Shown piece after piece: positions 14,860 through 23,584 of a stretch of 54,248 nt of DNA. The notes below the pieces were generated by a model. The model did not search any database, had not been told where the DNA came from, and saw only the letters and a program-made list of their open reading frames with translations. The DNA comes from Sedimentisphaerales bacterium (lineage in GTDB: Bacteria; Planctomycetota; Phycisphaerae; Sedimentisphaerales; Anaerobacaceae), in the NCBI GenBank assembly GCA_016933295.1, contig JAFGBG010000260.1, positions 1-54,248 of the forward strand, given 5' to 3'. Every line of letters begins with the position of its first letter. Position 1 is the stretch's first letter. The position numbers were made by a program, and so were the translations under genes.

Positions 14860-16095
14860 TTATTCAATCTCACGCGACAAACCGTACGGGCCGTGAACTA
14901 CACAGGTAGATTTGCCTCCTAACCGGCGGAACTGAATAATCATTTTTTCTTCGGTCTTTTTGCCGTTCTGTAATTTTAATATAACTGGAACTGCCGCAAT
15001 CGTACCGAGCTTGGAGTGGCCGGTTTTAAGTATCTTGCCGATTTTTACAATCTCTGTAATGCGGTCGTCTTTGTCCGGTTCAAAAACGATGGAACGTATA
15101 AAATCATCTCCTAAGTTTCGGCTTAGAGGAGCAATTTGCCTGAGCTGGTCGAGGTCCTGGTCAATGACTGCCTGGAACAATATACGTACTGTTTTTTCCG
15201 CGGCTTCCTGCTGTGATAGCCCTTCGATTGAAATCCCATCCCGTGGATTACTCAACGCACTGACATTTTCATCGGGAATCGTCAAAGGCTTCTCCGTGTA
15301 TGTCGGCTTGCCCGGGATATTAACTTCGAAGAAACTATCAGGCAGATTTTCATAATAAGTAATCTTAAAAGCCTCGAATGCAGGCTGGCCGCTGCGGTCC
15401 AGATTTGGCCATTGCTTAAAGGCCACCGGCAGCTTACTTTCGAGATCAAACTCAATCATCCAGGATTGGGGGCCATTCGAATCTATCATACTGCATATCA
15501 TCGTAACACGTTCCCGCCCTGTAGCGGGATCTTTGCCGCGAATTGTTTCGGTATTGTCGGCCTTGCTGAACATTTCCAGCAATTCAGGTCCGAGCCACTG
15601 AGAAAAACCAAGAGTGATGGCGTTTTCGAAGTAAACCGTGTTCTGACCGGGTTCGTAGTGGTAAGTAGAGCCGTCCTTTGTCCAAGTGATCGCACCTTGA
15701 CTGTTTCGCACAACTGAATCCGTAGAATAGGAACCGGTCTCATCAGAACGCATCCATATTTCCGCCGTACCGCCCGGATATGCACCGACGACATATACCG
15801 CCTTCAAGTCCTTGAGAGCTTCGATGGTATCGGAAAGTGCCCACGCCGGTGCGTTAAATTTGTCGATGACAAGAAGTGATAACACAACAGCGATTATTAT
15901 AAACGTTGCGACTAATTTGCTGATGTTGTTTTTCATAATAATTCTCCATATATTCGACCATGTAAAAGCCGATTGTTGATTTTTTGTTTTTCCCATCGCA
16001 TTCAAGATATCTTCGAGAATTTCTTTATCTTTCTGCGCGTTGGTATTAAAAGGAATATTTTGAATCTTCTTTTCAATATTTTCCGACGGCCTCAT
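14860..16095 (-). CDS. ECF cassette 1 membrane protein, putative sigma regulator
   Basis: A 411-residue protein translationally coupled to the ECF sigma gene before it (four-base ATGA overlap; GAGG seven bases upstream). Residues 1-53 are polar and would be cytoplasmic, followed by NIWRIIMKNNISK and a membrane helix at about 60-78 (LVATFIIIAVVLSLLVI), then PAWALSD, which reads like a signal peptidase site. The outer domain has a beta-rich part (about 95-285; AVYVVGAYPGGTAEIWMRS) resembling LolA/RseB-type lipoprotein-carrier folds, and a C-terminal domain starting EGLSQQEAAEKTVRILFQA. It is a paralogue of the cassette 3 protein. No zinc anti-sigma motif is seen. An anti-sigma or sensor role is inferred from pairing. 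Confidence 0.68.
   Translation of the reverse strand: MRPSENIEKKIQNIPFNTNAQKDKEILEDILNAMGKTKNQQSAFTWSNIWRIIMKNNISKLVATFIIIAVVLSLLVIDKFNAPAWALSDTIEALKDLKAVYVVGAYPGGTAEIWMRSDETGSYSTDSVVRNSQGAITWTKDGSTYHYEPGQNTVYFENAITLGFSQWLGPELLEMFSKADNTETIRGKDPATGRERVTMICSMIDSNGPQSWMIEFDLESKLPVAFKQWPNLDRSGQPAFEAFKITYYENLPDSFFEVNIPGKPTYTEKPLTIPDENVSALSNPRDGISIEGLSQQEAAEKTVRILFQAVIDQDLDQLRQIAPLSRNLGDDFIRSIVFEPDKDDRITEIVKIGKILKTGHSKLGTIAAVPVILKLQNGKKTEEKMIIQFRRLGGKSTCVVHGPYGLSREIE
15934..15947 (-). promoter_or_regulatory. Internal ribosome binding site and ATG, cassette 1
   Basis: GGAG at 15944-15947 precedes an in-frame ATG (15934-15936) by seven bases, at codon 54 of the membrane protein. Initiation here would yield a protein starting MKNNISK with a full Sec signal peptide ending near AWA. 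Confidence 0.5.
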
Positions 16096-16637
16096 TTTTT
16101 CACCTCGCCGTTTAACAATGACCGCAGTTTTTCAAGCCCGTAGCGGTACCGGCTCTGGACGGTGTTTATTGAAACGTTCAGGGATTTGGCTATTGCCCTG
16201 AATTTCATTCCACCCTGCACGTGCAGGATTACGGCTTCGCGCTGGTCGTAAGGAAGCTGTGACAGTGCGAAATTTAGTTTATCCAGCTCTTCGTTGCGGA
16301 TAATCCAGCCTTCGGGTAAATTAGAATCTTTCACCGAGGATTCAGCCTCATCGAGATTTACGGTCCGCCGACGCTGTGTGGCCCGGTTACTGTTACGAAT
16401 TCGATTTGTCACACACGTTGCCAGGTACCCTTTGAGATTACCGCCGAGTTTTAGCTGCCCGGGCGACTGCGCCAGCGAGACGAAAACATCGTGCACAACG
16501 TCCTCGGCAACACTGGTCTGGTTCGAGAGCCCACCGGCCATCCTGAGCAGATTATTCTTGTACTTTTCGTAGATGCGTGCCAGTGCGGCCTTCTCGCCCA
16601 GTTTGAATTTCCAGATAAGCAGCTTATCTTCTAACAT
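16092..16637 (-). CDS. ECF-type RNA polymerase sigma factor, cassette 1
   Basis: A short sigma-70-family factor of about 181 residues with only regions 2 and 4. Region 2 covers about 23-88 (ALARIYEKYKNNLLRMAGGL, then AEDVVHDVFVSLA). Region 4 is about 125-178 (LSQLPYDQREAVILHVQGG, then AIAKSLNVSINTVQSRYRYG), with the helix-turn-helix that reads the -35 element. The start MLEDKLLI matches that of cassette 2 (MLEDRILL), so ATG 16637 is preferred over 16643. It overlaps the membrane protein gene by four bases. Sequence similarity makes cassettes 1 and 2 close paralogues. Confidence 0.9.
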   Translation of the reverse strand: MLEDKLLIWKFKLGEKAALARIYEKYKNNLLRMAGGLSNQTSVAEDVVHDVFVSLAQSPGQLKLGGNLKGYLATCVTNRIRNSNRATQRRRTVNLDEAESSVKDSNLPEGWIIRNEELDKLNFALSQLPYDQREAVILHVQGGMKFRAIAKSLNVSINTVQSRYRYGLEKLRSLLNGEVKK

Positions 16638-16700
16638 TGGCATCTCAATTTACAACAAAAGATACGATTAATCGTCATTTATAATACAATTTGATCCCAC

Positions 16701-16715
16701 ATTTTAGTCTAAAAT
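16701..16715. promoter_or_regulatory. Palindrome upstream of cassette 1 sigma gene
   Basis: ATTTTAG-T-CTAAAAT is a perfect 7-base inverted repeat about 65 bases before the sigma start. It contains TTTAGACT read on the minus strand, also found about 72 bases before the cassette 2 sigma gene. It could be part of a promoter or an operator; no promoter is certain. Confidence 0.35.
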
Positions 16716-16733
16716 CATCCTCTTTTCACAACG

Positions 16734-16764
16734 AAAAAAGGCCGGACTGAATCGACCCGGCCTT
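16734..16764 (-). terminator. Rho-independent terminator of ECF cassette 2
   Basis: The minus strand reads AAGGCCGG, an 11-base loop, CCGGCCTT and a run of T: a perfect 8-base GC-rich stem with a T tract, about 33 bases past the cassette 2 membrane protein stop. Confidence 0.9.
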
Positions 16765-16796
16765 AATGTTTTTCGTATTAAGCTAAAATGTCGGCG

Positions 16797-18023
16797 TTAT
16801 TTTATCAATTCCTCGAAGTGGTTTTTATCTAAGATAATCTCGATATGACCGTCTGCGAAACCGACTATGGCGCCATCGGCCGGCCATTTTTCGAATATTT
16901 GATACAAAATCATCTCCCTTAACGGATCGGAACCTTCACGTGGTGGACGGTATCGCATCAAAACGGGACCGTTCGGATTATCTTGAGAAGTTAACAAATT
17001 TTTAAGTATTTGATCTGTGATGCCTACAGCTTTAAGCTCACTTAATTTTTTTGGGTATTGACCATTTCGTTCCGAAGCATATATAAAACAATTCAATAGT
17101 AAATGCCTCATTTTCGTAGAAATTCTGCTTTGAGCATCCGAGTAGTTTGAACTTCCCTCCGTGAAAGTGTAATCCTCAGGCGGTTTGAGACTGAACAGAG
17201 AATCATTCAGTTCTGTATCTATTTTAATTTCTGTGTATGTTATCGGCGGGTGATTCTGCTCCGGCCAGGTATGTTCGATTTGAACAGGTAACTTAGTCTC
17301 AGGATCAATCCAGACTGTCGTGACACGGTTATCCTTAGTCGATCTAAGCATTCGTACGGAACGGCCGCTAAGTGTGACCATGCCAATATCCTCGACAGCT
17401 CCGGCCGCCAGATCGAGCAACTTATCACGAAGACGCGTATATAGTTGAGTCTGTACCAGCCTGCCGGTGCCGGGGTCAATATTGTATTCGTAACTTATGT
17501 CGGACAGCACTGCTGTTTTTTCAACCGGATTGATAACCAGGCATTGACGCTTACCATAATCAGTGATTGTTATTTCTCCGACGAATCTGGATGTCGGTGA
17601 AGTTAATTTGACATGGCGTTCGAGGTTCGGCTCTTTGAACATTCGCTTGGACTTGAAGAGAAATTTTCCTTCGTTCTCTCCATCTTCGTAAGCCATCTCC
17701 ATAATCCTTATGCAAGAAAAGGTGCGTGCTTGTTTGACATGGTCCATCGCCGCGGCAAATGCGGTATTTGCTCCGTCAATCGGTGTTACAACAAAATTGA
17801 TTCCAAGAATTATCGCGAAGATTATAATCGCGGCGGCGGTTAATTTTATTTTTCTGCTTTGCATAATTATTCTCCATATATTCCGCTTGGAATAAGCTGA
17901 TTCTGTATCTTTTAACTCATTAAGTGCCGCTTGCGCACCTGCAAGGATGCGGTTTTTGTTTACGGCATTTTTTTTGATTCGTATATTTTTTGCTAATCGC
18001 TCTATATCTTTTGAGGATTTCAT
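16797..18023 (-). CDS. ECF cassette 2 membrane protein, putative sigma regulator
   Basis: A 408-residue protein whose start overlaps the sigma stop by four bases. Residues 1-53 are polar; NIWRIIMQSRKIK leads into a membrane helix at about 61-80 (LTAAAIIIFAIILGINFVV) and NTAFAAAMDHV, which looks like a signal peptidase site. The outer part (about 92-290) has a LolA/RseB-like pattern (KQARTFSCIRIMEM, then TTVWIDPETKLPVQIEH). The C-terminal 110 residues (ISTKMRHLLLNCFIYASERN, ending in WPADGAIVGFADGHIEII) resemble the H-x-G-D/A-DGH tail common in planctomycete secreted proteins of the DUF1559/prepilin-like type. Function is not known; regulation of the neighbouring sigma factor is inferred. Confidence 0.68.
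   Translation of the reverse strand: MKSSKDIERLAKNIRIKKNAVNKNRILAGAQAALNELKDTESAYSKRNIWRIIMQSRKIKLTAAAIIIFAIILGINFVVTPIDGANTAFAAAMDHVKQARTFSCIRIMEMAYEDGENEGKFLFKSKRMFKEPNLERHVKLTSPTSRFVGEITITDYGKRQCLVINPVEKTAVLSDISYEYNIDPGTGRLVQTQLYTRLRDKLLDLAAGAVEDIGMVTLSGRSVRMLRSTKDNRVTTVWIDPETKLPVQIEHTWPEQNHPPITYTEIKIDTELNDSLFSLKPPEDYTFTEGSSNYSDAQSRISTKMRHLLLNCFIYASERNGQYPKKLSELKAVGITDQILKNLLTSQDNPNGPVLMRYRPPREGSDPLREMILYQIFEKWPADGAIVGFADGHIEIILDKNHFEELIK
17862..17875 (-). promoter_or_regulatory. Internal ribosome binding site and ATG, cassette 2
   Basis: GGAG (17872-17875) lies seven bases before an in-frame ATG (17862-17864), codon 54. The shorter product would begin MQSRKIK with a Sec signal peptide ending near AFA. 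Confidence 0.5.
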
Positions 18024-18562
18024 AATAATTCGCCTTTATTCAAAAGAGACCGGAGTTTGTCGACTGAGTAACGATACCTGCTGCGTACCGTGTTTACCGA
18101 GACATCAAGAAGCCCGGCGATCCGTGGGAAATTCAGTCCGCCCCGTACGTGCAGGACGAAAACTTCCCGCTGCTGATAAGGCAGTTGCACCAGAGCATCC
18201 AAAAGTGCCGCCGCCTGTTCATCTTCGATCAGCCTGGCGAGAGGATTATCCCTTTTTGCGGGATTCTCGAATGTATCCGGCTGACAATCCGGTTTTCTTT
18301 CCTGTTTACGCAGGTAATCTCTGGCTCGATTTGCCACGCAGCACATCAGATAGGCCTTTAGATTGAAGCGAATCTTCAGGCTCCCGGCATTGCCGACGAG
18401 CCTGACGAAAACATCGCTAAGGCAATCCTCGGCCGCATGGATATCGGATAGAAGAGATGCCGCTACGGCGAGTAAATCATCCGCGTACTTTTCGTATATA
18501 AGCTGCAGAGCGTCGGAATCTGCGGCACGCAGGCGTCTCAGCAGGATTCTATCTTCCAGCAT
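18020..18562 (-). CDS. ECF-type RNA polymerase sigma factor, cassette 2
   Basis: A 180-residue ECF sigma factor. Region 2 spans about 20-85 (ALQLIYEKYADDLLAVAASL, then AEDCLSDVFVRLVGNA); region 4 spans about 123-175 (LVQLPYQQREVFVLHVRGG, then IAGLLDVSVNTVRSRYRYS). It is the closest relative of the cassette 1 sigma in the window, both beginning MLED and ending in a KLRSLLN motif. The stop overlaps the next start (ATGA), implying coupled translation. It faces away from rhaM across a 203-base gap. Confidence 0.9.
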   Translation of the reverse strand: MLEDRILLRRLRAADSDALQLIYEKYADDLLAVAASLLSDIHAAEDCLSDVFVRLVGNAGSLKIRFNLKAYLMCCVANRARDYLRKQERKPDCQPDTFENPAKRDNPLARLIEDEQAAALLDALVQLPYQQREVFVLHVRGGLNFPRIAGLLDVSVNTVRSRYRYSVDKLRSLLNKGELL

Positions 18563-18590
18563 CGATATCGTTCCTAAATGCCAAATAAAA

Positions 18591-18602
18591 TTGAACGTTC
18601 AA
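18591..18602. promoter_or_regulatory. Palindrome TTGAACGTTCAA upstream of cassette 2 sigma gene
   Basis: A perfect 12-base palindrome lies 29 bases before the sigma start, in the divergent gap shared with rhaM. A related half-site, ATTCAACA, follows at 18617-18624. It may be an operator, but no partner repressor is identified. Confidence 0.35.
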
Positions 18603-18765
18603 CTACTGATATGACGATTCAACAACTCAAACCAGTCTAAAGAAAATCGAAATTTTTTACCAGATTTTAATCCGGCTTGGTTCAATATTTGGATTGACGA
18701 TTTCAACACGTTTGGGTAAATAATAAACAATAATCTGCCTGAAATACAAAATGGAAAGGACTAAA

Positions 18766-19083
18766 ATGAAACGAAACGCATTTAAGATGAAGCTATCGAG
18801 CGGCGATGTTGCCGAATATAAGAAAAGACACGACGAAATCTGGCCGGAGCTGGTGGAGGTGCTCAGAAAGGCCGGTATAAGCGATTATTCCATCTATTAC
18901 GATGAAGAAACACAAACTCTTTTCGCCTTCCAGAAACTTACCGATGATAACACAGCGGACGAGCTGCCGCAAAATCCGGTCGTGCGTAAATGGTGGGACT
19001 ATATGAATGACGGCATAATGGAATACGATGAAAAAGACGAACCCGTTTCCATCCCGTTAGAAGAAGTTTTCCACATGGATTAG
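18766..19083 (+). CDS. rhaM: L-rhamnose mutarotase
   Basis: A 105-residue protein of the RhaM/COG3254 family, which interconverts alpha and beta anomers of L-rhamnose. The family pattern is clear: KMKLSSGDVAEYKKRHDEIW near the start, with the conserved His, ISDYSIYYDEETQTLFAF in the middle, and VRKWWDYMNDGIM followed by PLEEVFHMD at the end. ATG 18766 is preceded by AAAGGA at six bases; the ATG at 18751 has no such site. No other rhamnose genes are nearby, and it stands alone between two ECF cassettes, ending in a terminator shared with the convergent cassette 3. Confidence 0.93.
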   Translation: MKRNAFKMKLSSGDVAEYKKRHDEIWPELVEVLRKAGISDYSIYYDEETQTLFAFQKLTDDNTADELPQNPVVRKWWDYMNDGIMEYDEKDEPVSIPLEEVFHMD

Positions 19084-19127
19084 AGAAAAAACAGATCCGG
19101 AAATATCCGTCGCATACAATTTTAAAG

Positions 19128-19171
19128 AAAAAAAACGCTACTAAGCCAATCAGCCCGGCAGCGTTTTTTTT
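19128..19171. terminator. Bidirectional terminator between rhaM and ECF cassette 3
   Basis: AAAAAAACGCT and AGCGTTTTTTT form a stem around a 20-base loop, giving T-runs on both strands. It lies 45 bases past the rhaM stop and 19 bases past the convergent membrane protein stop, so it can end both transcripts. Confidence 0.8.
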
Positions 19172-19189
19172 GTACAGTTATGCTTTGAT

Positions 19190-20518
19190 TTAATCCACGA
19201 CGCCCTTTTCCTTGGAGCCGATGATAAAACAGAACGTTTTGCCTTCCATCTCGTAAAACTTTATCATGGCATTCTGGACTTCATTCTTGCCGTTCTGCCC
19301 CTGGATCTCTATGGGGACATACCACAACTCGCCTTCCTGATAAGGCTCCCCCTTGATAACAACTTCTTTGACCCACTGGCCGTTTTCCTTCATTGTTTTG
19401 ATTTGTTCCCATATCAGAGGCGGATAGAGCCGGAAAAAAAGATCAAGCTTGCAGAGAGTTTCTATATCCAAATCGACCAGTGCCCGTCCGGTTTGCTTTG
19501 CAATTTCAAGGCAGGCCTCCTGCCGGGTCATTCCATCGGCAATCAAACCCGAATCGGGATCAACCATGCAGTCAACTTCCTCTTCGACAATAACAGCATC
19601 GTCGGGCAAATCGAATATGCCTTCCGGCGGCAGCTCGTTATAGCGTATCTCGGTGAGATTCTTTACGACAAGTGTCATTTTCATCATTTCCAAAGGGTTG
19701 TCGTCCCGTATCGTAGAGAAACTCAGCGGCAGTTTTGTTTCCGGATCCACGAGGAATTTCTGCTCTCTCTTCGAGGTTTTTATCAGGACAGCAATGATTT
19801 CTTTTCCCGTACTCGAATCAATCTCATTATCGATATTAATCGAATCCGATTTTTCCGCCTTCTTAACGATATCGTTAAAGAAACTGCCGAACTTGAAAAT
19901 CCAATCCTTGCTCCTCTCGTCACGTAAAGCAAAATGGACTCTGTTTGTGCGTTTGTTCAGGCCGAAAACACCCGCGGGCGAGCATACCTTGCAAAGGTTG
20001 TGCCCCGCTCTGCCCAACCATACGTGGGTGGGTCTGTCCGGGTCGCCGTCATATTTCATCCAGCACTCGAATTGTCCCTGCATATAAAATTCCCCCGCCA
20101 TATAAACCGTCTTAACTTCACGAATCGCATCGGCTGTCTGGTCCACTGCGTAGGCCGGAGTAACAGAATTATCCAGAAAGGATATTACCAGCAATACGGC
20201 AACTATTATTACCGCCGCAGCGGCAAATTTCGTTATTTTTTTATGCATTATAATTCTCCAAATTGATTTTTCTGTTGTGTAATCTTTCAGCGTTGAAAGG
20301 GCGCTTATCGCCCTTCCACAACGAACATCCATGCCGGCATCTATATTTTGACTAAACTGGGTAAGCAAGCTCTTTTCTTTTTCAAGTGACTGCAAATGCG
20401 CCCTGCATTGTTCACATTCGCTGATATGATGTTTGAGGGCATCAACTTTTTCCTGATTCAAAATTCCGAGGATATAGTCAGCCATCTGGTTCTGTATTTT
20501 TTCACATTGACTATCCAT
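19190..20518 (-). CDS. ECF cassette 3 membrane protein with zinc-type anti-sigma domain
   Basis: About 442 residues. The N-terminus carries a zf-HC2/ZAS anti-sigma signature, HHISECEQC (His-x3-Cys-x2-Cys at about 33-40 of the long frame) with an upstream Cys, so it is a likely true anti-sigma factor for the adjacent ECF. Then come SIWRIIMHKKITK, a membrane helix (FAAAAVIIVAVLLVISFL) and TPAYAVDQ, which resembles a signal peptidase site. The outer region pairs a beta-rich domain (TVYMAGEFYMQGQFECWMKY) with a C-terminal domain (DGMTRQEACLEIAKQ) related to the cassette 1 protein. ATG 20518 has AGGAG six bases upstream and overlaps the sigma stop; an ATG at 20524 is less well placed. Confidence 0.78.
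   Translation of the reverse strand: MDSQCEKIQNQMADYILGILNQEKVDALKHHISECEQCRAHLQSLEKEKSLLTQFSQNIDAGMDVRCGRAISALSTLKDYTTEKSIWRIIMHKKITKFAAAAVIIVAVLLVISFLDNSVTPAYAVDQTADAIREVKTVYMAGEFYMQGQFECWMKYDGDPDRPTHVWLGRAGHNLCKVCSPAGVFGLNKRTNRVHFALRDERSKDWIFKFGSFFNDIVKKAEKSDSINIDNEIDSSTGKEIIAVLIKTSKREQKFLVDPETKLPLSFSTIRDDNPLEMMKMTLVVKNLTEIRYNELPPEGIFDLPDDAVIVEEEVDCMVDPDSGLIADGMTRQEACLEIAKQTGRALVDLDIETLCKLDLFFRLYPPLIWEQIKTMKENGQWVKEVVIKGEPYQEGELWYVPIEIQGQNGKNEVQNAMIKFYEMEGKTFCFIIGSKEKGVVD
20246..20259 (-). promoter_or_regulatory. Internal ribosome binding site and ATG, cassette 3
   Basis: GGAG (20256-20259) is seven bases before an in-frame ATG (20246-20248). The shorter product would start MHKKITK, contain a Sec signal peptide ending near AYA, and lack the zinc anti-sigma domain. 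Confidence 0.5.
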
Positions 20519-21038
20519 TTTCATCTCCTTGCACGGTCAATAGTCCGTGCAATTGTTTTATCGCGCCTCGCAGTTTCGAATATACCGCCGATGTTGACAT
20601 ATCAAGATTTTCCGCAACCTTTTGGACGCTTTGGCCGTCGAAGTAGTACATCACTAACGGCAGTCTTGCTTCCATCGGCAGCTTCTCTATCGCCCGCCGC
20701 AGGTTATCATTTTCGTTCGGCTTCTGTTCCGGCAGTTTTATCTTTTCCTCTAATATTTTCCTGCCGCGTTGTTTCCTGCGAACAAAATTTATACATAAGT
20801 TTCCGGCGATTTTTCCAATCCAGGCGCCGAACTGGGAATCGCCTCGAAGCTTCGATATTTCCTGATATCCTTTTAATACCACTTCCTGTGCAGCATCTTC
20901 GGCATCATGAACATTGCCGACGATCCCAAGGCAAATCAAAAAAATATGCTTGTAATATCTTTCCACAAGCGATGCGTAAGCACTTTTATCGCCCTCGTGA
21001 GAGGCGGCTACTAATTTTTCATCCGAATGATTTTCCAA
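20511..21038 (-). CDS. ECF-type RNA polymerase sigma factor, cassette 3
   Basis: A 175-residue ECF sigma factor. Region 2 is about 12-78 (DKSAYASLVERYYKHIFLIC, then AEDAAQEVVLKGYQEISKL) and region 4 about 113-168 (AIEKLPMEARLPLVMYYFDG, then VAENLDMSTSAVYSKLRGA). It reads from a TTG at 21038, with AGGAG six bases upstream; no ATG lies nearby in frame. It belongs to a different subgroup from cassettes 1 and 2. It overlaps the zinc-type anti-sigma gene, the classical ECF arrangement. Confidence 0.92.
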   Translation of the reverse strand: MENHSDEKLVAASHEGDKSAYASLVERYYKHIFLICLGIVGNVHDAEDAAQEVVLKGYQEISKLRGDSQFGAWIGKIAGNLCINFVRRKQRGRKILEEKIKLPEQKPNENDNLRRAIEKLPMEARLPLVMYYFDGQSVQKVAENLDMSTSAVYSKLRGAIKQLHGLLTVQGDENG

Positions 21039-21144
21039 TAGAAGCTCCTGTATTCGATACTACTATAAAGACAAACAGTGGTAGCTGAATTTACAAAAAA
21101 ATAGGATTATTTTCAATTTTTGAGTTCAATTGTGTGAAAAAAGC

Positions 21145-21172
21145 AAAAAAGGCCGAGTTTCAAAGCTCGGCC
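21145..21172 (-). terminator. Rho-independent terminator of ECF cassette 4
   Basis: The minus strand reads GGCCGAG, an 8-base loop, CTCGGCC and six T, a strong terminator 32 bases past the cassette 4 membrane protein stop. Confidence 0.9.
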
Positions 21173-21204
21173 TGTTAACTGTCTTAAACATCCTGCTATT
21201 ATTA

Positions 21205-22794
21205 TCATGGCTCAACTGAACCGGGCACATATTCCTGTGCTGGAATCAAGCTGTCTATTAGATCATGCAACTCCTGTTCGCTGAGAGGCCCATTGACAGC
21301 AAGGACTAAGTAACTCCCAGCAGGTGATCGAAGGATATACCCGACGCGATTATTGTGAGGCTCGAATCCCGAACTTTTAAGTGCCAACTCAGTCCACCAC
21401 ATCTCGGTTGTTTTATCGTTTTGATGCAGCACCTTAAAGCCATTGTCCGATTCGTACATCCAGGGTATTGTTTCTCCAAGCTCCTGGAGTTTGCCAAATG
21501 CGGTGGTAAAATATCTGTTGAAGGTTTCTCCCAGATTAAGCACAACGTCACGGCTGTCTTTCGCACTATATGTTACACAAAACATACGGGCCGGCGCGCT
21601 TGCCTCATCCGGCAAATCGTAGATAAGACATTTGTTGGTCCATGAAGGGATTTTCGCAAAAATATAAACGGGATACGTAGCACGCTGAACCATCTGCCCT
21701 ACAGTCACAGTATCAGCCCCTTCGCCGGTATCCACATCAACTGCGGTTTGCTCCGCAACACTCGCTTTTATCTCGGCCATATTCCATGAAAGCTCCGGGT
21801 TATCAACCGTCTCGGTAACAGTGCGGCGATGTAAACGGGTTGTCTCGCCTTCAAAAACACATTCAACTTCATCGATGATTTCTGTATCAGAATCGACCTT
21901 GAACAAAAAGTAAGAATCTGTTTTTCCCCATGCATCTGTAAAACCGAGTTTGTACGTACGGACCGGCGTTCCATCTTCGAGCCTTTCAGAAGTGACTTCC
22001 TTAATCGGCGGATAATGTTTTCCGGGCACTGTTGCCTTGATACCAGCGGCAATTCCCAGAAAATCGGCGGGATTCTCCGGTATCCTAAATTCCTCAGTTT
22101 CGGCCTGTTGTTCGATTTTGAGTGAGCCTGACGGCTCTTTACCGGCAATATAAACAAACCGGCCGTCGTAAGAATTGGCAAACAGAACATTATCACCTGT
22201 CTTTAATACACGTGCAAAACACCCTGTGACAGGGTCATACCAGGATATATCCGATATAGTGATTGTTGTATCCGTGCTCCTGGCGACCTCAAGCTTGTGC
22301 TCCCGGAGTTGTCCATCCGCATCGAGCGAATAAACAGGCAGCCATTGATAAGACAGCCAGCTTTTGATAAATGCCACATTCTTTTCCTGTGTTGCATCGG
22401 CCTCTAACTCATCGAGAAGAGCACCCGCATCGGATTGCGATTGTGGGTACATAATTATCTCATTAACAATGTGAACAATCCCTTCCTGACCAATAAAAAG
22501 TGTTTTCTCAGCGGCAGAGGCGCGGGCCAACAAAGTGAACGAAGATATATGCCCGGTCGTATTCGAATACAACCAACCGAACAGAACTACGACAATCAGC
22601 ACGGCAGCCGTCGCGATTAGTTTTGTTATTCTCGAACTCATAATTTTTCTCCAGATACTTAAAGAGGTTTTTTTCTGCCGAATTAAGCAGGCATGAAGAT
22701 TTTGTTCGAGCTTATCACGATGGGCATAATCGGGAGTATCATCGAACTCGATTCCATGCAGAAAATCTTCAAATTCTTTTTCGTCAGATTTCAT
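21205..22794 (-). CDS. ECF cassette 4 membrane protein, putative sigma regulator
   Basis: About 529 residues from ATG 22794, which has GGAGG nine bases upstream and begins four bases after the sigma coding region; a frame start at 22833 lacks support. Residues 1-51 are acidic and polar, with a short segment ending SIWRKIMSSRITK before a membrane helix (LIATAAVLIVVVLFGWLY) and LARASAAEK, a likely signal peptidase site. The large outer domain shows no family I recognise; it contains TVRTYKLGFTD-type beta strands and a C-terminal lobe ending in SLIPAQEYVPGSVEP. It is unlike the other three outer domains, so each cassette seems to carry its own sensor-like part. Confidence 0.65.
   Translation of the reverse strand: MKSDEKEFEDFLHGIEFDDTPDYAHRDKLEQNLHACLIRQKKTSLSIWRKIMSSRITKLIATAAVLIVVVLFGWLYSNTTGHISSFTLLARASAAEKTLFIGQEGIVHIVNEIIMYPQSQSDAGALLDELEADATQEKNVAFIKSWLSYQWLPVYSLDADGQLREHKLEVARSTDTTITISDISWYDPVTGCFARVLKTGDNVLFANSYDGRFVYIAGKEPSGSLKIEQQAETEEFRIPENPADFLGIAAGIKATVPGKHYPPIKEVTSERLEDGTPVRTYKLGFTDAWGKTDSYFLFKVDSDTEIIDEVECVFEGETTRLHRRTVTETVDNPELSWNMAEIKASVAEQTAVDVDTGEGADTVTVGQMVQRATYPVYIFAKIPSWTNKCLIYDLPDEASAPARMFCVTYSAKDSRDVVLNLGETFNRYFTTAFGKLQELGETIPWMYESDNGFKVLHQNDKTTEMWWTELALKSSGFEPHNNRVGYILRSPAGSYLVLAVNGPLSEQELHDLIDSLIPAQEYVPGSVEP
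22639..22652 (-). promoter_or_regulatory. Internal ribosome binding site and ATG, cassette 4
   Basis: GGAG (22649-22652) precedes an in-frame ATG (22639-22641) by seven bases. The shorter product would start MSSRITK and carry a Sec signal peptide ending near ASA. Confidence 0.5.
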
Positions 22795-22798
22795 TTCT

Positions 22799-23368
22799 TC
22801 ATACCTCCCGCCTGGAAAGCTTCCTTTCGGCACCTAATTTCTTTCGCAGTTTGGCCAATGCCCGTGAGAGCTGGCTGCGAACCGTGCCGGGGCTGCTTCC
22901 AAGCACTTCGGCAATTTCTGTTAGTTTCAAATTTTCAAAAAAACGCAGTGTGATGATAGTTTGATACCTGGGTTTTAATGTTAACATTGCCTGCTTTAAT
23001 ACCGCCAGCTTCGCAGAAGATTCTTCACGATTACCGTTTTGGATATTCGATCGTTCATGGAAAATGCTCAGAGCCGTTTTCTGCCTGGTGGATTTTCTCA
23101 TCTGATCGTTAACATAGTTGGTCGAGATTGTATAGAGCCAGTTGCGAAACTGCCTTTCATCGCCCCTAAAATCGTGGAACTTCTCAACAACTTTTAGAAA
23201 AACCTGCGAGGTTATATCCTCGGCTATGTGTCTGTCAAAGAGCCTGTGAACACAATACTTAAAAACGGCGTCGTAGTGTCTGCGATACAGCAATGCAAAC
23301 GCGTTATAACTCGTTTGTGCCTGTATAATTAAATCGTTGCTCTCAAGTTCCCGACCGAAACTATCCAC
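22799..23368 (-). CDS. ECF-type RNA polymerase sigma factor, cassette 4
   Basis: An ECF sigma factor of about 189 residues. Region 2 reads ALLYRRHYDAVFKYCVHRLF, then AEDITSQVFLKVVEKFHDF; region 4 reads MLTLKPRYQTIITLRFFENL, then IAEVLGSSPGTVRSQLSRA. GTG at 23368 has AGGAG ten bases upstream; an in-frame ATG at 23410 has no ribosome binding site, so the shorter start is preferred. The gene is followed at once by its membrane protein partner, and diverges from a HAD gene. Confidence 0.88.
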   Translation of the reverse strand: MDSFGRELESNDLIIQAQTSYNAFALLYRRHYDAVFKYCVHRLFDRHIAEDITSQVFLKVVEKFHDFRGDERQFRNWLYTISTNYVNDQMRKSTRQKTALSIFHERSNIQNGNREESSAKLAVLKQAMLTLKPRYQTIITLRFFENLKLTEIAEVLGSSPGTVRSQLSRALAKLRKKLGAERKLSRREV

Positions 23369-23584
23369 GATAATACAGCTCCTAATTTTGCAGGTATCAG
23401 TTATCATCACTATTATAAATGCGCGGGATTGAAAAACGCGGCAAAAAATTAAAATTATGTTAATGCATTCTTTTCTGATTCATTCTCGTTCAGCCTTGAC
23501 AGATATTCCTTACGCAAGTATTTTGAGGCGAATTCTTTTTGATTTTTGGATTGTAATTTTGATATTTCATTTTTGCTTTTTTAT

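Follow-up and report, generated by a model that had tools for sequence, protein, structure and literature searches.

Two translation starts in one gene serve a sigma-factor control circuit in Streptomyces, where they give the isoforms SigR and SigR'. In the RseA/RseB and MucA/MucB systems, sigma factors are controlled by an anchored anti-sigma protein working with a separately encoded partner. In-frame internal starts are known in other bacterial genes as well, including those of ClpB, IF2, CheA, SpaO/SsaQ and two-product endolysins (PMC9430671, PMC11005335, PMC13059759). Shine-Dalgarno-like sequences have also been described as pause sites that precede the second transmembrane segment of Escherichia coli membrane proteins, after the first has emerged (PMC4359368). 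Here we analyze a stretch of 54,248 nucleotides from a Sedimentisphaerales bacterium (assembly GCA_016933295.1, contig JAFGBG010000260.1), hereafter the window, in which four membrane proteins encoded beside extracytoplasmic function (ECF) sigma factors each contain an internal GGAG placed seven nucleotides before an in-frame ATG (GGAG-N7-ATG). We propose that these are two-start genes producing an anchored regulator and a short sensor form, a reading that, taken as a whole, we put at a probability of about 0.74.

Probable internal start sites in four sigma-factor partner genes

GGAG-N7-ATG occurs in frame in 4/4 ECF partner genes on the minus strand of the window, at 15934-15947, 17862-17875, 20246-20259 and 22639-22652. 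These coordinates had been given by the first-pass annotation and are correct, and the W-R-x-I-M text and AGA Arg codon that it described are present in all four proteins. One of its codon numbers is to be corrected: the value of 91 for protein 3 holds for one choice of start only and becomes 93 when counting begins at an upstream ATG at 20524. Each site supplies a start codon in frame with a Shine-Dalgarno sequence at normal spacing. The features concerned are the following, lengths being in amino acids (aa).

14860..16095, minus strand: protein 1 long form, 411 aa, with a short helical cytoplasmic region, one transmembrane helix, a LolA/RseB-like domain (~82-270) and an NTF2-like domain (~292-410), from the open reading frame (ORF), an AlphaFold (AF2) model and fold matches
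14860..15936, minus strand: protein 1 predicted short form, from the internal ATG of the in-frame GGAG-N7-ATG
15944..15947, minus strand: protein 1 internal Shine-Dalgarno GGAG, 7 nt before ATG 15936-15934, by motif position
15954..15972, minus strand: protein 1 hairpin TCGGCT-n7-GGTCGA upstream of the internal Shine-Dalgarno, RNA model 58.9 bits
16092..16643, minus strand: ECF sigma factor, sharing 4 nt at its stop with the long start of protein 1 (ORF, family match)
16797..18023, minus strand: protein 2 long form, 408 aa, with a transmembrane anchor and a LolA/RseB-like ectodomain (~82-291), from the ORF, DUF1571/DUF2092 matches below curated cut-offs and a model
16797..17864, minus strand: protein 2 predicted short form, from GGAG-N7-ATG 17862-17875
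17879..17894, minus strand: protein 2 hairpin TATTCC-n4-GGAATA upstream of the internal Shine-Dalgarno, RNA model 41.4 bits
18020..18562, minus strand: ECF sigma factor with a 4-nt overlap with the protein 2 start (ORF, family match)
19190..20524, minus strand: protein 3 long form, 444 aa, with a zf-HC2 anti-sigma domain (Pfam, E 1.7e-5), a transmembrane segment and an ectodomain
19190..20248, minus strand: protein 3 predicted short form, from GGAG-N7-ATG 20246-20259, with no hairpin at the usual distance
20511..21038, minus strand: ECF sigma factor, partner of protein 3 (family match)
21205..22794, minus strand: protein 4 long form, 529 aa, starting at ATG 22794 behind a Shine-Dalgarno GAGG (ORF)
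21205..22641, minus strand: protein 4 predicted short form, from GGAG-N7-ATG 22639-22652, with only a weak upstream stem at 22675-22690
22799..23410, minus strand: ECF sigma factor, partner of protein 4 (family match)

The bare motif is not significantly enriched in the window: it occurs 7 times where 5.3 would be expected, and 29 of 100 shuffles contain at least as many. This count is uninformative, so the weight rests on the fixed place of the motif in homologous proteins. The family was collected by an alignment search in which the W-R-x-I-M codons were masked as unknown, and the five codons of the 203 distinct members obtained were read out unseen (codon 1 is the Trp position, codon 2 the Arg and codon 5 the Met/ATG). 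The search places the family in 84 of the 89 genomes of the window's taxonomic family, with 24 copies in the genome of the window itself. That genome contains more tandem runs of partner genes resembling the window array (G000:C245:55-6378, C204:2558-4440 and C37:52706-54918). A separate pattern set, which overlaps the alignment set, left both the Arg codon and the ATG free and gave 97 sites in 161 genomes of the order. With the ATG fixed, the pattern matches in several families of the order; with the ATG free, a class-wide scan returned nothing outside the order except one unrelated match, in G449, that lacks the motif.

Codon-level selection on GGAG and ATG

The residue at codon 1 varies among the 203 members (Trp 143, Arg 38, Gly 18), and its codon is NGG in 198 of them (TGG 143, AGG 35, CGG 3, GGG 17), Arg being written AGG or CGG in 38/38 cases and Gly GGG in 17/18. 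Codon 2 is AGA in 175 members, AGG in 3 and AGC or AGT in 14, and codon 5 is ATG in 187 (92%) and GTG in 3. When the ATG is present, the codon-2 Arg is AGA or AGG in 169/169 cases, compared with 121 AGR and 100 CGN among the Arg codons lying from 12 codons upstream to 13 downstream of the site (p 6e-31). Background use of AGR in family genes is 36% overall and 55% within 15 codons of the site, and an Arg that follows Trp elsewhere in these genes is AGA in just 9%, mostly CGN. The same preference extends to Ser at codon 2, encoded by AGC or AGT in 12/12 ATG-bearing members versus 41% of Ser codons overall, and a single Glu variant (TGGGAGTATATCATG) retains GGAG at 6 nt from the ATG. In a thinned set of 61 members sharing less than 62% nucleotide identity, codon 1 has an invariant GG, and codon 2 has an A and a G conserved at 0.97 and 0.94. 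The surrounding third positions mostly stand at 0.26-0.5, and with those positions diverged, shared descent is no explanation for the fixed bases.

The minority of members that lack the ATG, some of which carry CGN at codon 2, would be restricted to the long form and constitute natural controls. In the pattern set, whose rows were counted by hand for the coupled-loss tests, codon 2 is CGN in 6/9 Arg members without a start codon and in 0/75 with ATG (p 2e-7), and GGAG is intact in 83/85 members with a start codon but in 5/12 without (p 2e-6). Among the 187 ATG-bearing members of the alignment set, GGAG is lost in few. This decay of GGAG where ATG is lost is expected if both serve one function, that of an initiation site, and not from a pause element or a peptide motif. 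Among the outcomes that the first-pass annotation had set against its own proposal are Arg codon use matching the genome average and frequent loss of GGAG or ATG in homologues that keep the membrane segment; neither of these two was observed, and its interpretation is supported by both tests. We regard it as almost certain that GGAG and ATG are under selection as nucleotides and not as peptide.

Two other explanations have to be confronted with these counts. GGAG could be a Shine-Dalgarno-like pause that slows the ribosome just before the membrane helix and aids targeting, the Met being merely a residue, and the site does sit just before the transmembrane segment, like the pauses already described (PMC4359368). 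Such a pause would need no ATG at 7 nt and should persist whether or not a start codon stands at a fixed distance, yet the ATG is highly conserved and GGAG disappears with it. The reported pauses moreover precede the second transmembrane segment, whereas here the segment is the sole one, and the unstructured RNA around the ATG, described below, is a feature of starts; a pause is therefore improbable. The second explanation invokes a peptide constraint on W-R-x-I-M together with shared descent or gene conversion among paralogues, leaving the DNA motif functionless. It draws on the fact that neighbouring codons show some synonymous conservation and that some of the codon changes are single-step. 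However, GG stays fixed under a residue 1 that is freely Trp, Arg or Gly, CGN appears only where ATG is absent, hairpin stems compensate, and nearby Arg codons and third positions have diverged in the same genes. These comparisons largely refute a peptide constraint, which retains scarcely any credibility.

RNA structure and probable translation of the internal site

A 45-nt segment at the internal ATG folds more weakly than its synonymous resamples do (-2.26 vs -4.05 kcal/mol, p 1e-13), and the segment situated ~12 codons upstream is more folded (-9.30 vs -5.82 kcal/mol, p 4e-13) because of a small hairpin upstream of GGAG. Typically TCGGCT-n7-AGCCGA, this hairpin lies inside the coding sequence, is centred ~15.5 nt before GGAG and leaves a gap of ~6 nt. 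It scores 12.1 against 5.2 in resamples that follow the codon use of the gene concerned (p 6e-21), and its stem is strong in ~60% of ATG-bearing members. By the same resampling, members without ATG have no significant hairpin, and the other segments show only small excesses, at two later offsets of 30 and 45 codons. Of the four window proteins, protein 1 has a good hairpin and protein 2 a fair one; in proteins 3 and 4 the hairpin is weak or lies displaced. A general gene-start feature was considered and rejected, as ordinary gene starts in the window are without it.

Ungapped covariation over 140 thinned members is diluted by variable stem positions, and 52 members with fixed geometry were used instead. 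Their covariation is 0.232 versus 0.141 when shuffled, a value reached in 0/500 shuffles, and five of the six pairs have changed on both sides, as compensation requires. Choosing these 52 members favours pairing, and the weight is carried by the within-set shuffles and by the codon-resampling test on all members. Weak structure at the ATG combined with an upstream hairpin provides independent support for internal initiation, and the hairpin might insulate the internal site. A covariance model run on the window's own genome recovers the element wherever it was already known. It also gives weaker matches outside the family; one of them (L254, G000:C128:13439-13469) is apparently an ordinary gene start, preceded by no more than a short reading frame. 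Its GGAGAATTATTATG is identical, which suggests that this spacing is in use at normal starts.

The inverted repeat invites another explanation, in which the conserved core is a DNA site such as a recombination joint swapping N-terminal and sensor modules, or an intragenic site for a regulator. The core does lie at the border of variable N-terminal and variable C-terminal modules, with the inverted repeat beside it. Against this, the repeat varies in sequence with compensation, and GGAG exactly matches the anti-Shine-Dalgarno and keeps a fixed spacing to an in-frame ATG, which makes a DNA site very improbable.

The 3' end of 16S ribosomal RNA is GGATCACCTCCTTTCT in two sister species and contains the anti-Shine-Dalgarno CCTCC; the window's own assembly gave no match for this end. 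Duplex energies with the anti-Shine-Dalgarno are -6.8 kcal/mol at the internal site, -8.6 at the long-form start and -3.2 for random codons. A sigma gene lies directly upstream of 4/4 window partners and of 180/185 members with room upstream, overlapping by exactly 4 nt in 121/185, an arrangement suggesting that translation of the long form is coupled to that of its sigma factor. Initiation at the internal ATG would not depend on this coupling. Initiation at GGAG-N7-ATG is strongly implied by these sequence features, and we consider it very probable.

The two predicted products and their relatives

Translation from the internal ATG would give a protein with a short basic stretch (Met-Lys-Ser-x-Ile-Thr-Lys), a hydrophobic core and then AxA. 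This layout, anticipated by the first-pass annotation, extends to the family, [AVT]xA following the core in 127/181 members versus 13/181 in a control stretch. Judged from sequence, export of the short form with cleavage is plausible, and its release as a free protein seems on balance likely. Alternatively, internal initiation is real and an uncleaved signal anchor keeps the short product in the membrane, where it would act as a dominant partner of the long form. The length of the hydrophobic core (~15-18 residues) and the position of AxA, 9-15 residues beyond it, speak for such an anchor, but most members have kept [AVT]xA at positions 32-37. An anchored short form, which overlaps the two-start reading, is the less expected outcome and yet a serious one.

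Of the four partners, only proteins 1 and 2 were modelled with AF2 (mean predicted local distance difference test score, pLDDT, 84.5 and 75.9). Their predicted ectodomains match the folds of LolA, LprG and RseB/MucB (Z 8-14; also by Foldseek), the matches of protein 1 including LolA-type carriers and MucB; a shared LolA/RseB fold is no proof of function. The C-terminal part of protein 1 (14860-15270) is predicted to be NTF2-like, and among its structural matches is RsgI9, an S1C-NTF2 protein from Clostridium thermocellum. Searches of the four partners against Pfam and NCBIfam found an anti-sigma domain, zf-HC2, in protein 3 only, and no Pfam anti-sigma match at cut-off in proteins 1, 2 and 4; the other matches, to DUF1571/DUF2092 or general anti-sigma families, are weak and below cut-off. 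The N-terminal regions without a Pfam match would presumably bind sigma. A small plus-strand ORF (18751-19083) located between sigma/partner pairs resembles L-rhamnose mutarotase by eye only.

In the mechanism that we propose, start 1, usually coupled over 4 nt to the upstream ECF sigma gene, would make the long form, in which a single transmembrane helix joins a sigma-binding region in the cytoplasm to an exported sensor domain. An internal ribosome binding site located immediately ahead of the transmembrane segment, and consisting of the hairpin, a ~6 nt A/T-rich spacer, GGAG, 7 nt and ATG, would initiate a second product, whose N-terminus could work as a Sec signal. The resulting short form would be a free or differently anchored sensor domain devoid of the sigma-binding part, and each family gene probably makes both the anchored regulator and a free exported sensor half. 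Because the ectodomain is LolA/RseB-like in the two modelled cases, one gene may by analogy encode an RseA-RseB-like pair, the long form corresponding to RseA fused to RseB and the short form to free RseB. The free copy would probably compete for ligand or bind the anchored copy, and so set the signalling threshold. More tentatively, a structured mRNA element may enable hundreds of sigma-partner genes in the order to make an anchored anti-sigma factor and a free RseB-like sensor, the hairpin setting a ratio between them that may follow a signal or the translation load of the upstream sigma gene.

Several observations weigh against the two-start reading. The members are paralogues sharing ancestry, and the changes from TGG to AGG or GGG and from AGA to AGC or AGT are single-step, so that the counts for Arg-1, Gly-1 and Ser-2 overstate the evidence; the CGN test and the thinned set are independent of such changes and are not weakened by them. 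At other third positions of the segment (ACA, GCC) there is some conservation as well. GTG stands in place of ATG only 3 times, and lost ATGs have become ATA, ACG, CTA or CTG, not TTG. The hairpin has a strong stem in only ~60% of members and is absent or displaced in window proteins 3 and 4, the gap between core and AxA exceeds that of a textbook signal peptide, and genes starting only at the internal ATG were found in 0/142 cases.

Gene callers report one protein per gene, and a second signalling product present throughout a family would be missed. The two-start reading, if true, shows how the two halves of an RseA/RseB-like switch can be combined in one gene. It also suggests that translational control is shared by the large expansions of sigma factors in this planctomycete-related order. 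Codons that match the anti-Shine-Dalgarno, stay fixed across changing residues and are lost with the start codon offer a testable signature for other hidden starts. Internal starts themselves are known; a hairpin plus ribosome binding site spread over a whole regulator family appears to be new as far as the searched literature shows, in which no paper ties anti-sigma factors to internal starts in this way.

With SigR/SigR', the difference lies in the component that is doubled, the sigma factor itself there and its membrane partner here. ClpB, IF2, CheA, SpaO/SsaQ and the endolysins have in common with this family an internal Shine-Dalgarno and an in-frame start giving a C-terminal product, here a predicted one, from one gene; here, however, the site is family-wide, a compensating hairpin often lies upstream and the short product carries a possible export signal. 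Shine-Dalgarno-like pausing shares the placement of such an element shortly before a transmembrane segment but involves no start codon (PMC4359368), whereas in this family GGAG is retained with the ATG and disappears with it. RseA/RseB and MucA/MucB share with this family an anchored protein, here a putative anti-sigma factor, adjoining its sigma gene, and a LolA/RseB-like domain outside, here predicted for proteins 1 and 2. As this domain is fused to the anchored protein here and not encoded by a separate rseB gene, the family is filed not as an RseA/RseB member but only as working like it: RseA and RseB are the products of separate genes, whereas both functions would here share one two-start gene.

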